Source of the DNA: Balneola sp.
GTDB lineage: Bacteria > Bacteroidota > Rhodothermia > Balneolales > Balneolaceae
NCBI GenBank assembly: GCA_003712055.1
Contig: RHLJ01000004.1
Span: 62,001 to 126,000 of the forward strand
Direction: 5' to 3'
DNA length: 64,000 nt
The notes beneath the pieces were generated by a model. The model was not told where the DNA came from. It ran no database searches and worked only from the letters and a program-made list of their open reading frames with translations. This document shows, one piece after another, positions 1,984 to 61,031 of the stretch. Every line of letters starts with the position of its first letter. The stretch's first letter is position 1. Both the position numbers and the translations under genes were made by a program.

Positions 1984-2047
1984 GATTCTTCGCAAGTATG
2001 CTCAGAATGAATTTTTAATGTCATCCTGAGGCTACCGCCGAAGGATC
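1984..2047. repeat. Pair of palindromic dispersed repeats (family A)
   Basis: Two units in inverted order: GATTCTTCG...CTCAGAATGA (1984-2010) and GTCATCCTGAG...GAAGGATC (2020-2047). The second unit is identical over 28 bases to the one at 9145-9172. Its last bases overlap the stop codon of the GIY-YIG gene on the minus strand. Confidence 0.85.
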
Positions 2048-2384
2048 AGCCATTTATGGAATTAAGAAACTCTTGTTTTGGTGGCCAGTAACCAAAAATC
2101 TCCTCATTCATAAATCTCCACTCTGTGTTAAACTCATTAATCAAATTTTCTTTCCATCGACGAGTTTTCCCTTTAATGTATTTCTCTGATTGTATTGCGT
2201 CATAAGCATTAGAAAAAGATTCATACCAAACCAAATAAAAACAGGAATATTTAGAAGCGTATGAGTTAGCAGCACCTCTATTTTTATAGTGGAATAGTAA
2301 TCGATTTTCCAGATTATTTGTCATCCCCGTGTACAGTACAGTTTTGGAATAATTTGTAATTATATAAGTATAGTATTGTTTCAC
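2046..2384 (-). CDS. GIY-YIG domain nuclease (UPF0213-like)
   Basis: A small single-domain GIY-YIG protein. The first motif appears as YTYII and the second as LYTGMTNN, followed by the conserved Arg of NNLENRLLFH, the later Tyr/Glu-rich strand, and the Glu of SEKYIKG expected to bind metal. These nucleases cut DNA with one metal ion; the stand-alone UPF0213 type has no settled cellular role. I choose the GTG at 2384-2382 (112 residues) because homologues start at the KQYYTYI stretch and AGAGG lies upstream; another GTG at 2414 would add ten residues. The TGA stop (2048-2046) overlaps a family A repeat, and a degenerate palindrome lies upstream of the gene. This placement suggests a link between nuclease and repeat. 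Confidence 0.85.
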   Translation of the reverse strand: MKQYYTYIITNYSKTVLYTGMTNNLENRLLFHYKNRGAANSYASKYSCFYLVWYESFSNAYDAIQSEKYIKGKTRRWKENLINEFNTEWRFMNEEIFGYWPPKQEFLNSING

Positions 2385-2431
2385 ATATGGTAAGACCTCT
2401 AAAAATAGAAACACTTACAAAATTTTTTGAT

Positions 2432-2463
2432 TCATATCCTGAGTGCATTAGGGCTCATGATGA
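2432..2463. repeat. Degenerate palindrome resembling the family A repeat
   Basis: The stretch has TCATATCCTGAG on one side and CTCATGATGA on the other, an imperfect inverted repeat with the same CCTGAG/CTCA ends as the family A units. It lies just upstream of the GIY-YIG gene, so that gene has repeat-like DNA on both sides. Confidence 0.4.
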
Positions 2464-2497
2464 CTAGTTAGATCTATTAAATCAGTACATTCAGTCC

Positions 2498-5974: not shown

Positions 5975-7468
5975 ATGGAGAAAAAATTTGTACTTGCAAT
6001 CGACCAGGGGACAACCAGTTCCAGGGCGATTATTTTTGATCATGATGGAGAAATCAGAGCCGTAGCTCAAAAAGAATTCAAACAGCATTTTCCGAATGAA
6101 GGATGGGTAGAACATAACCCAAACGAGATATGGAAAACCCAGGCAGGAGTGATTGCCGAAGCTATTACCGAATGTGGAGCAAATGGAAAGAACATAGCGG
6201 CTATAGGAATTACAAACCAAAGAGAAACCACGGTTGTGTGGGATAGAGAAACCGGAGAGCCGGTATATAACGCTATTGTATGGCAGGATAGGAGAACATC
6301 CGACTATTGTGATCAATTAAAAGCAGAAGGCTGGGAAGAGAAAATCAAAGAAAAGACTGGACTTGTAATAGATAGCTATTTCTCCGGAACAAAAGTGAGA
6401 TGGATTTTAGAAAACGTAGATGGAGCCCGAACAAAAGCAGAACAAGGCAAACTCGCCTTTGGAACCATTGATTCCTGGCTAGTCTGGAATCTTACTAAAG
6501 GAGAAACACATGTAACCGATGTGACCAACGCATCTCGAACAATGCTTTATAATATATGCGAAGGAAAATGGGATGAAGAGCTGCTCCAGTTAATGGGAAT
6601 CCCTCAAAGCATGCTGCCCGAAGTTAAGTCATCAAGTGAAGTTTACTGTCATACTAAAACCACTATTTTTGCTCATGAAGTGCCTATTGCTGGAATTGCA
6701 GGAGATCAGCAAGCAGCCATGTTTGGACAAATGTGCACGCGGCCGGGAATGTTGAAGAATACCTACGGAACAGGTTCCTTTATTATGTTTAATACAGGAA
6801 CAGAAGCCGTTGAATCTAAAAACAACCTACTCACTACAATAGGTTATCAGGTTAATGATGAGACGATCTATGCGTTAGAAGGAAGTATTTTCATAGCCGG
6901 CGCCGTTGTTCAATGGCTACGCGACGGGCTTGGAATTATTAAGTCTTCTTCTGAAATAGAAAAACTCGCCCTATCAGAAGAGGATAATGGAGGAGTTTAC
7001 CTGGTACCGGCATTTGCCGGATTAGGAGCTCCACACTGGGACCAGCGAGCCCGGGGTTCTTTGTTTGGATTAACCCGGGGATCAACTGCGGGACATATAG
7101 CACGGGCCGCGTTAGAGGGAATCGCTTTTCAGGTAAAAGATGTGTTAGATGCCATGGAAGCCGATTCCGGTATCGATATCCAGGAACTTCGAGTAGACGG
7201 AGGGGCAACAGTTAATAATACATTAATGCAATTCCAGTCAGATATTCTGCAAATTCCCATTGTCCGTCCAAAAATACTGGAGACAACGGCACTTGGAGCA
7301 GCGTACCTGGCCGGGCTGGCAGTAGGGTTTTGGAAGGACGCAGACGAAATTGGAAAACAATGGCAGGAGGAAAAGCGATTTGAACCAAAAATGGGCTCAA
7401 ATGAAGTTCAAAGTCTCCTCTCAAAATGGAATAAAGCCGTGGAAAAAAGTAAAGGGTGGATCTCGTAG
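5975..7468 (+). CDS. glpK: Glycerol kinase
   Basis: A 497-residue FGGY-family kinase that makes sn-glycerol 3-phosphate from glycerol and ATP in the cytoplasm, the first step of glycerol use. The N-terminal [18 protein letters not shown] holds the phosphate-1 motif with Asp10, [11 protein letters not shown] follows the family pattern, and [13 protein letters not shown] and TYGTGSF are typical GlpK blocks. The length equals that of known GlpK proteins. A strong AAGGAG ribosome site lies seven bases before the ATG. It heads a glpK-glpD-glpF series on the same strand, with repeat-filled gaps of about 100 bases between genes. Confidence 0.97.
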
Positions 7469-7556
7469 TCATCCTGAGGATACTTCCGAAGGATCTAATT
7501 GTAAATCAATAACCGATAATCAAACTTCACAGATCCCTGGTCAAGCCCGGGATGAC
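7468..7556. repeat. Pair of palindromic dispersed repeats between glpK and glpD
   Basis: GTCATCCTGAGG...GAAGGATC (7468-7495) begins on the last base of the glpK stop codon. A second, inverted unit GATCCCTGGTC...GGGATGAC (7532-7556) uses a different core, so it belongs to another subfamily with the same outer ends. Together they could form one long hairpin in the transcript. Confidence 0.8.
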
Positions 7557-9129: not shown

Positions 9130-9144
9130 CAATACAATTTTATT

Positions 9145-9218
9145 GTCATCCTGAGGCTACCGCCGAAGGATCTAGTCGAATATTCGTTCAGATCCTTCGC
9201 AAGTATGCTCAGGATGAC
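9145..9218. repeat. Pair of palindromic dispersed repeats between glpD and glpF
   Basis: GTCATCCTGAGG...GAAGGATC (9145-9172) is followed after 18 bases by the inverted unit GATCCTTCGC...CAGGATGAC (9191-9218). The first copy is identical to 2020-2047 and the second to 44981-45008. Confidence 0.9.
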
Positions 9219-9233
9219 TATTAGGAGAAAACA

Positions 9234-9951: not shown

Positions 9952-10098
9952 GTCATCCTGAGCACCCCTGCGAAGGATCAAACATTAAAAGGATTAAGCC
10001 TTGTTGTAGTTAACGGGATAATTATCAAATGAACCTAAAAGCAAAGTATGATGTAGTTTATTTTTTTGATGATCCTTCGCAGGGGTGCTCAGGATGAC
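9952..10098. repeat. Perfect inverted pair of 28-bp dispersed repeats
   Basis: GTCATCCTGAGCACCC... (9952-9979) and its exact reverse complement (10071-10098) are separated by 91 bases. It is the most exact pair in the window and lies between glpF and the next gene. The transcript could form a 28-bp stem. Confidence 0.9.
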
Positions 10099-14295: not shown

Positions 14296-14381
14296 GTCAC
14301 TCAGAGCAAAGCGATGAGTCGGCACAATTTTCTAGCAAGTTCTTGGTTGTGCAGATCCTTCGGAAGTATCCTCAGGATGAC
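14296..14381. repeat. Dispersed repeat pair between ffh and rpsP
   Basis: A family A unit GATCCTTCGG...CAGGATGAC (14354-14381) stands opposite a decayed unit GTCACTCAGAG...GATGAGTC (14296-14320). The pair sits inside the ffh-rpsP operon, so it would form a hairpin within that transcript. Confidence 0.75.
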
Positions 14382-43945: not shown

Positions 43946-44030
43946 GTCATTCTGAGCGAAGCGAAGAATCAACAGAAAACCCGAATTATTTGAGTTTGTG
44001 TTGATCCTTCGGCAGTAGCCTCAGGATGAC
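43946..44030. repeat. Pair of dispersed repeats after marR
   Basis: GTCATTCTGAGC...GAAGAATC (43946-43970) and the inverted family A unit GATCCTTCGG...CAGGATGAC (44003-44030). The two units have different cores, so they did not arise as one recent perfect pair. The gap from 43835 to 44103 holds otherwise only the terminator. Confidence 0.85.
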
Positions 44031-44980: not shown

Positions 44981-45008
44981 GATCCTTCGCAAGTATGCTC
45001 AGGATGAC
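44981..45008. repeat. Single dispersed repeat unit (family A)
   Basis: GATCCTTCGC...CAGGATGAC, identical to 9191-9218. No partner unit is found within 100 bases, so this is a solo copy. Confidence 0.85.
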
Positions 45009-59103: not shown

Positions 59104-59210
59104 GTCATCTTGAGCATACCTGCGAAGGATCTAAGCGAATCAAATCCGTTAAGATTCTTCGGCAAGTAGTCCGCCTTCCAAAGTGTACGACGGACAGGCC
59201 TCAGAATGAC
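59104..59210. repeat. Dispersed repeat pair, second unit split by an inner hairpin
   Basis: GTCATCTTGAGC...GAAGGATC (59104-59131) is followed by an inverted unit GATTCTTCGGCAAGTA...CTCAGAATGAC (59153-59210). The second unit carries an extra stretch of about 28 bases in its middle that starts GTCCGCC and ends CGACGGAC, itself an inverted repeat. Confidence 0.75.
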
Positions 59211-60924: not shown

Positions 60925-61031
60925 GTCATCCTGAACTTGTTTCAGGATCCTCGTGAAATTGAATAGATAGAGCCTATCTGCGAACTCAATCAACGCCTTT
61001 TCTTAAGATTCCGAAACAAGTTCGGAATGAC
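60925..61031. repeat. Pair of dispersed repeats (ACTTGTTTC core)
   Basis: GTCATCCTGAAC...CAGGATC (60925-60949) and an inverted unit GATTCCGAAAC...CGGAATGAC (61007-61031). Each unit is a near-perfect palindrome about a GAAC/GTTTC centre. The 227-base gap between the cyclase and sugar-isomerase-like genes holds nothing else I recognise. Confidence 0.8.

Follow-up and report, generated by a model that had tools for sequence, protein, structure and literature searches.

Small GIY-YIG nuclease genes and CGTC-type hairpin repeats: comparative evidence for a putative mobile system

Introduction

A stretch of 64,000 nucleotides from a Balneola sp. genome (the window, hereafter) contains a small GIY-YIG nuclease gene bounded by copies of a hairpin repeat that recurs in other gaps of the same stretch. 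Is this nuclease the agent that copies or moves the repeats, or are the repeats simply its targets? The repeats themselves are of a kind already known: CGTC-tagged REPs occur in many phyla, with Neisseria, Rickettsia, rhizobia and Bacteroidota among the carriers (R. prowazekii, to our knowledge, is without them), and their mode of spread has been open since at least 2013. They were described as sequences that “apparently lack a dedicated transposase”, in a superfamily that includes Neisseria dRS3 and Rickettsia RPE-4 and RPE-6 and allows TGTC and CCTC variants of the tag (Di Nocera 2013, PMC3733652).

Results

The window gene lies between two hairpin repeats

The nuclease gene occupies positions 2046-2384 on the minus strand and encodes a UPF0213-like protein of 112 amino acids, counted from the GTG start codon at 2384 (2414, also GTG, is a possible alternative). 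It matches Pfam PF01541 with 54.7 bits (cut-off 22.6); a search of NCBIfam gave no specific family for the protein, and a role as a defence system was rejected as there was no PADLOC match. All hallmarks of the GIY-YIG fold (two Tyr motifs, the active-site Arg, Glu and Asn) are present. Residues Y7, Y18, G20, R28, H32, E67, K71 and N86 are invariant across 24 relatives including the window protein, and the catalytic residues are approximately 100% conserved over 210 alignment rows. The best PDB match of the structure model (pLDDT 89.8) is 1zg2 (UPF0213, BH0048), followed by Slx1. Since the nearest folds include this branched-DNA nuclease, cutting of hairpins or cruciforms is plausible for the modelled protein. 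As judged by these features, the product is apparently an active GIY-YIG nuclease.

We propose that the gene forms part of a 445-bp element at 2020-2464 (minus strand), delimited by GTC at 2464 upstream, where the end is decayed, and by GAC at 2020 downstream, with hairpin repeats as both ends. Read on the minus strand from 2464 to 2020, it starts with GTCATCATGAG... (the decayed repeat), continues through the gene and finishes with ...GATCCTTCGGCGGTAGCCTCAGGATGAC, an intact family A repeat. This downstream end (2020-2047, plus strand; GTCATCCTGAGGCTACCGCCGAAGGATC) matches the genome-wide family A pattern exactly and, as the preliminary description had stated, overlaps the stop codon of the nuclease, TGA at 2046-2048. 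The degenerate palindrome reported upstream of the gene was located at 2429-2464 (minus strand; GTCATCATGAGCCCTAATGCACTCAGGATATGAATC); it begins exactly with GTCAT and has its outer limit at 2464. The second repeat unit reported beyond the first was also found, at 1984-2011 (plus strand), just outside the element, slightly decayed (3 mismatches) and in the orientation opposite to 2020-2047. The same architecture, a gene between two hairpins with GTC facing outward at each, is common to 54 loci, whose units measure 346-590 bp (median 411 bp).

Family A repeats in the window and the genome

The family A hairpin consists of five pairs, two unpaired positions per side, three pairs and a 4-base loop, with an unpaired GTC outside. 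Over 57 units of many genomes the stem pairs show strong co-variation: 97.8% of the 59 cells changed on both sides are paired. Mobile units are usually dimers that combine two unlike hairpins, GTCATTCTGAGGCTACTGCCGAAGAATC and GATCCTTCGCAAGTATGCTCAGGATGAC, with 18 to 24 nt between them. Families A, B and C of this genome have GTCAT...ATC ends in common.

Family A units start at 1984, 2020, 7468, 9145, 9191, 9952, 10071, 14354, 44003, 44981 and 59104 in the window. Among them are those at 7468-7495 (plus strand), 14354-14381, 44003-44030 and 44981-45008 (all minus strand), and that at 59104-59131 (plus strand, one mismatch); the unit at 9952-9979 (plus strand) pairs with an inverted partner at 10071-10098 (minus strand). 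A 74-bp dimer at 9145-9218 (plus strand; GTC-hairpin-18 nt-hairpin-GAC) has the form of a REPIN-like mobile unit. As DNA it folds with -21.4 kcal/mol (z -7.0), and its whole-unit relatives number dozens within its own genome, with sharp GTC and GAC edges in the aligned copies. No target-site duplication was visible in aligned family A dimers. Related repeat types lie at 7532, 43229, 43946 and 60925/61007, the last being a family B dimer (60925-61031, plus strand, 82-bp spacing), which is related to the genome's family B nuclease elements but has no gene. The earlier count of at least ten gaps with the repeat holds (at about ten) when these related types are included; family A alone occupies about eight.

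The hairpin scan detected 15 units in the window and 0.6 in shuffled windows. In the 3.63-Mb genome, the exact family A pattern has 71 copies and a slightly looser one 108, neither with any control match. Chance as the source of the repeats or of their association with the gene is ruled out by the shuffles and by the control ORFs described below. The gap at 9130-9233 holds the family A dimer in the window genome and in G040, and the orthologous gap in G039 (G039:C1:974162-974188) a single family B palindrome instead; one gap thus took in different repeat types.

Repeats flank small nuclease genes in many phyla

The window's own genome contains ten matches to PF01541. Seven of them are small GIY-YIG genes that fall into three subfamilies, each adjoined by its own repeat type: family A repeats at the window gene (L005) and L007, family B repeats at L001, L003 and L006, and family C repeats at L002 and L004.

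We then drew 80 relatives of the nuclease gene from 84,980 species by protein similarity alone, regardless of repeats. They come from more than ten phyla, with Bacteroidota, Balneolaceae, Ignavibacteria, Patescibacteria, alpha-, beta- and gammaproteobacteria, Chloroflexi, Armatimonadetes, Elusimicrobia, spirochaetes, Clostridia, Thermotogae and others represented, and some are from metagenome bins. Their flanks were searched for the hairpin motif GTCAT-NNN...N'N'N'-ATC within 250 bp, with ORFs of the same stretches as controls. Such a hairpin accompanies 69 of the 80 relatives and 47 of 845 control ORFs (Fisher p = 2e-60). Hairpins on both sides, their tags mostly outward, are present at 34 relatives compared with 3 control ORFs (p = 2e-36). 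No recognised hairpin lies within 250 bp of the remaining 11 genes. A motif-free test for a repeat common to both flanks was positive for 64 of 82 nuclease genes and 54 of 868 controls, and for 103 of 117 nuclease genes in the window's family, Balneolaceae. Many loci missed by the motif are bordered on both sides, in direct orientation, by complete dimers (about 110-170 bp) or by longer tracts of such repeats. The expectation that these genes are flanked by the repeats more often than random genes is thus borne out with and without the motif.

Among annotated replicons, flanked genes were found in Neisseria gonorrhoeae (dRS3-type repeats), Azospirillum, Rhizobium CIAT894, Sphingobium, Novosphingobium, Sinorhizobium and Planktothrix, the heads of the repeats being GTCAC, GTCGC or CTCAT in some cases; at the Rhizobium L51/94 copy (L174) no repeat is close by. 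Flanking repeats are not a property of all GIY-YIG genes, as E. coli yhbQ and the gene for a long GIY-YIG protein (L008) are without them. On plasmid p1 of Planktothrix agardhii the nuclease gene and its repeats (L179) have an MmeI-type restriction gene on one side and drmA, a DISARM gene, on the other. At G091:C3:126445-127263 (L208), G014:C23 (L224), G149:C86 and G139:C31 the nuclease gene is present in tandem or clustered copies, some of which contain stop codons.

Repeat type follows nuclease lineage

We scored repeat type (A, B or C) from flanking DNA and built the tree from protein. For 97 genes from 36 genomes of the window's family, the three repeat types map to three nuclease lineages: repeat type changes twice on the protein tree, which is the minimum for three states. 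Free shuffles of the labels required at least 28 changes, and 18 or more were needed when labels were shuffled inside each genome. Strict labelling (63 genes) again gives 2 changes against at least 17 in shuffles, so that a bias from the fallback rule in labelling can be dismissed. Over all rows there are 10 changes against at least 54; five loci are present in both sets (L011/L093, L038/L111, L040/L110, L068/L120, L003/L091), and the tree counts dropped only L091. Genome relatedness was rejected as the cause of the match because the within-genome shuffles never approached the observed value. Few columns underlie the tree and many of its forks are weak, which should blur a match between lineage and type rather than produce one. 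These patterns indicate that nuclease gene and repeat type have been inherited together.

Gene-less derivatives and copy number

The inner ends of thirteen family B nuclease elements are mostly TTTGTAAGG upstream and TTAYG downstream. Both ends recur, in the same asymmetric order, in 16 of 21 gene-less family B dimers, which is above the 99% level of the null. With inner ends that are those of the nuclease element itself, the gene-less dimers appear to descend from it; they look like what internal deletion would leave, as in MITEs. Family B gene leaders (L001, L003, L006, L098, L162-L167) contain a conserved GTAAGG...CTTAC inverted repeat in the stretch from the upstream hairpin to the start codon, which may have a regulatory role as a leader or be recognised as a subterminal site.

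Across 67 nearly complete genomes of the family, the number of nuclease genes correlates with the number of A and B copies (rho 0.56, p = 1e-6; p = 0.001 by permutation within genera), and the six genomes without a nuclease gene have zero copies of either. In a phylum-wide sample outside the family, the gene is present in 26 of 29 genomes with family B copies compared with 104 of 188 without them (p = 4e-4); the 104 genomes with a nuclease and no repeats concern the family B type only, to which this count was limited. One clear exception, G258, has 28 family B repeats and only long UvrC-type GIY-YIG proteins; G045 (81% complete) similarly has repeats without the small nuclease. Gene loss or an assembly gap at repeats would explain both. 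The repeats, then, are mostly tied to the presence of the gene: their copy number tracks gene number over the 67 genomes, and they are not equally common where the gene is missing.

Copies at several loci and sites without the unit

Genome G001 has the whole repeat-gene-repeat unit at four loci (L162-L165), 93-96% identical. At L165 the similarity to the other units ends at the GTC and GAC edges, which delimits a unit of about 410 bp. One unit with the same edges at unrelated loci of a single genome is as expected of an autonomous mobile element. The units at L162, L163 and L164 are embedded in longer common sequence with inverted ends of its own, TTGTAGATGTCAGGTAATTCG...CGAATTATCTAACATCTACA, which is perhaps a second mobile element that carries or received the nuclease unit.

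Sites without the unit were found in several lineages. In Azospirillum lipoferum 4B the nuclease gene and repeat dimers lie between sufB and sufC, and at this site three Azospirillum relatives at 94% identity have neither gene nor repeats. The Sphingobium unit lies between fnrL and a response-regulator gene in seven records and is missing from four others; two of the strains without it (TomTYG64 and TomTYG74) have kept a single palindrome there that bears GTC at each end, GTCACCCCGGGTCAAGCCCGGGGTGAC or a close variant. At the window locus, G003 has the nuclease gene between family A repeats, the sister species G039 has kept the upstream edge and a REP and lacks the gene, and several other relatives show neither gene nor repeat. 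Sites of this kind cannot always separate insertion from loss. Single palindromes that have GTC at each end are rare, 92 genomes containing 17 of them; four join unlike half-stems, as deletion between two element ends would.

The Sphingobium palindrome can be read as a site split by the gene, in the way that a homing gene splits its recognition site, and it introduces the main alternative: that the nuclease is a homing-type parasite that cuts REPs of other making, its gene being copied into the cut by repair. The single matching palindrome at the gene-less site would be expected, as would the whole dimers on both sides in direct orientation at L223, L228, L155, L042 and L245, and co-evolution of nuclease and repeat type fits equally well. 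However, gene-less relatives are often free of repeats at the site (the Azospirillum suf operon; several at the window locus), gene-less dimers carry the inner ends of the nuclease element, and repeat copy number follows gene number, so that we consider such a parasite unlikely.

We regard it as very improbable that another transposase (RAYT or IS) moves the repeats, with the GIY-YIG gene as cargo or as a gene that gathers in low-constraint gaps. RAYT mobility of REPs has been proposed for the GTAG superfamily (PMC3733652), but in the study of Di Nocera (2013) no transposase with CGTC repeats at its flanks was found (PMC3733652). Moreover, units of 346-590 bp leave little room beyond the nuclease, nuclease lineages and repeat types would not correspond one to one if the gene were cargo, and the association is missing from control ORFs in those stretches. 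Least probable of all is a host repair enzyme that trims repeat cruciforms, its association with repeats reflecting regulation and not mobility: Slx1 and YhbQ, to which it is related, function in DNA repair or are annotated as repair proteins, and one Caulobacter COG2827 member has an SOS box (PMC1839093), but gene number ranges from 0 to 15 across species of one family, with broken copies, near-identical copies lie at different loci, and the suf operon is split by the gene in one species only.

Discussion

Comparison of genomes reveals an association of gene and repeats, matched lineages, defined edges, copies at multiple loci, sites without the unit, gene-less derivatives and a conserved hairpin. 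Together they make strong comparative evidence for what would be a mobile nuclease-repeat system. In our view the nuclease gene is probably the autonomous member of a group of very small mobile elements, and we strongly infer from these comparisons, as the best reading, that the nuclease itself moves its repeats. The preliminary description had suggested just such an agent, a counterpart to RAYT and REP elements, which flanking, lineage match and dosage now support; its other suggestion, that the repeats are mere targets, appears the less likely of the two.

The element, typically of about 0.35-0.5 kb, would consist of a GIY-YIG gene between two inverted hairpins tagged GTC...GAC, and the scattered repeats would be element ends and gene-less derivatives. 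The nuclease would recognise GTC-tagged hairpins of its own type and cut there, presumably on hairpin or branched DNA and at the tag itself, which would let the unit (or, in trans, a gene-less dimer) be copied to new sites. GIY-YIG enzymes are hydrolytic and are not known to form a covalent link with DNA, for which reason the joining step would probably fall to host ligase or repair. With about equal confidence for and against, CGTC REPs and small GIY-YIG genes may be proposed as a separate and very old class of bacterial transposable elements which, at about 0.4 kb, would rank with the smallest that are autonomous. Their movement by a hydrolytic, structure-selective nuclease, with no covalent intermediate, would be a transposition chemistry undescribed for DNA elements.

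Our finding singles out one enzyme family as the candidate behind CGTC REPs, and matched pairs of enzyme and hairpin are available, three of them independent in one genome. If true, the proposed mechanism would provide a role for many genes annotated merely as ‘GIY-YIG nuclease family protein’ or ‘excinuclease ABC subunit C’, and it would suggest that REP-type systems arose twice, from unrelated nucleases.

Was the element undescribed, as had been suggested? The nuclease-repeat system appears to be new, but the repeats belong to the described CGTC REP superfamily. Shared features are the GTC tag, stems of 8-9 bp with AT at their base, loops of 4-5 nt and outward-facing dimers. The GTCAT...ATC ends of families A, B and C agree with the tag, stem and loop of that superfamily, the base before GTC being variable, and head-to-head dimers are frequent here as well. 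Families B and C fit directly, including an uninterrupted 8-9 bp stem, whereas the family A stem is divided into 5+3 bp around two unpaired positions per side. The gonococcal GIY-YIG gene is flanked by dRS3-type repeats; the CGTC REP paper made no link between its repeats and GIY-YIG genes (PMC3733652). Our literature search, which had most subscription journals outside its reach, found no paper linking GIY-YIG genes to REPs, and an earlier report is possible.

Among enzymes of the same fold, homing endonucleases of the I-TevI type share the catalytic domain, and selfish spread by DNA cutting is plausible for both. The protein studied here, however, has about 100 residues and no separate DNA-binding domain, gene-less derivatives exist, and the gene resides in intergenic DNA between hairpin repeats, with no intron or intein seen. 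UPF0213/COG2827 proteins such as E. coli YhbQ and B. halodurans BH0048 also have this fold, as does Slx1; UPF0213 members outside the present group, YhbQ for example, differ in having no flanking repeats, and Slx1 in its extra zinc-finger domain and partner protein.

Bacterial MITEs are likewise short, contain no gene and have the same inverted ends as an autonomous element, but their partners are usually IS transposases that generate target duplications; here the partner would be a nuclease, and no duplication was seen. Insertion sequences differ in the same respect (aligned family A dimers lack a target duplication) and in their enzyme, the only one here being GIY-YIG and not DDE or Y. The closest resemblance is to the RAYT/REPtron/REPIN systems, in which a gene is likewise flanked by its own REP type, the tag lies outside the stem, dimers are mobile and gene and repeat are inherited together. 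RAYTs, however, are HUH/Y1 tyrosine transposases unrelated to the GIY-YIG nuclease, and the tag of their REPs is GTAG, not GTC. We count the system as new because it lacks the defining features of both RAYTs and insertion sequences while it appears to work much like REP-RAYT.
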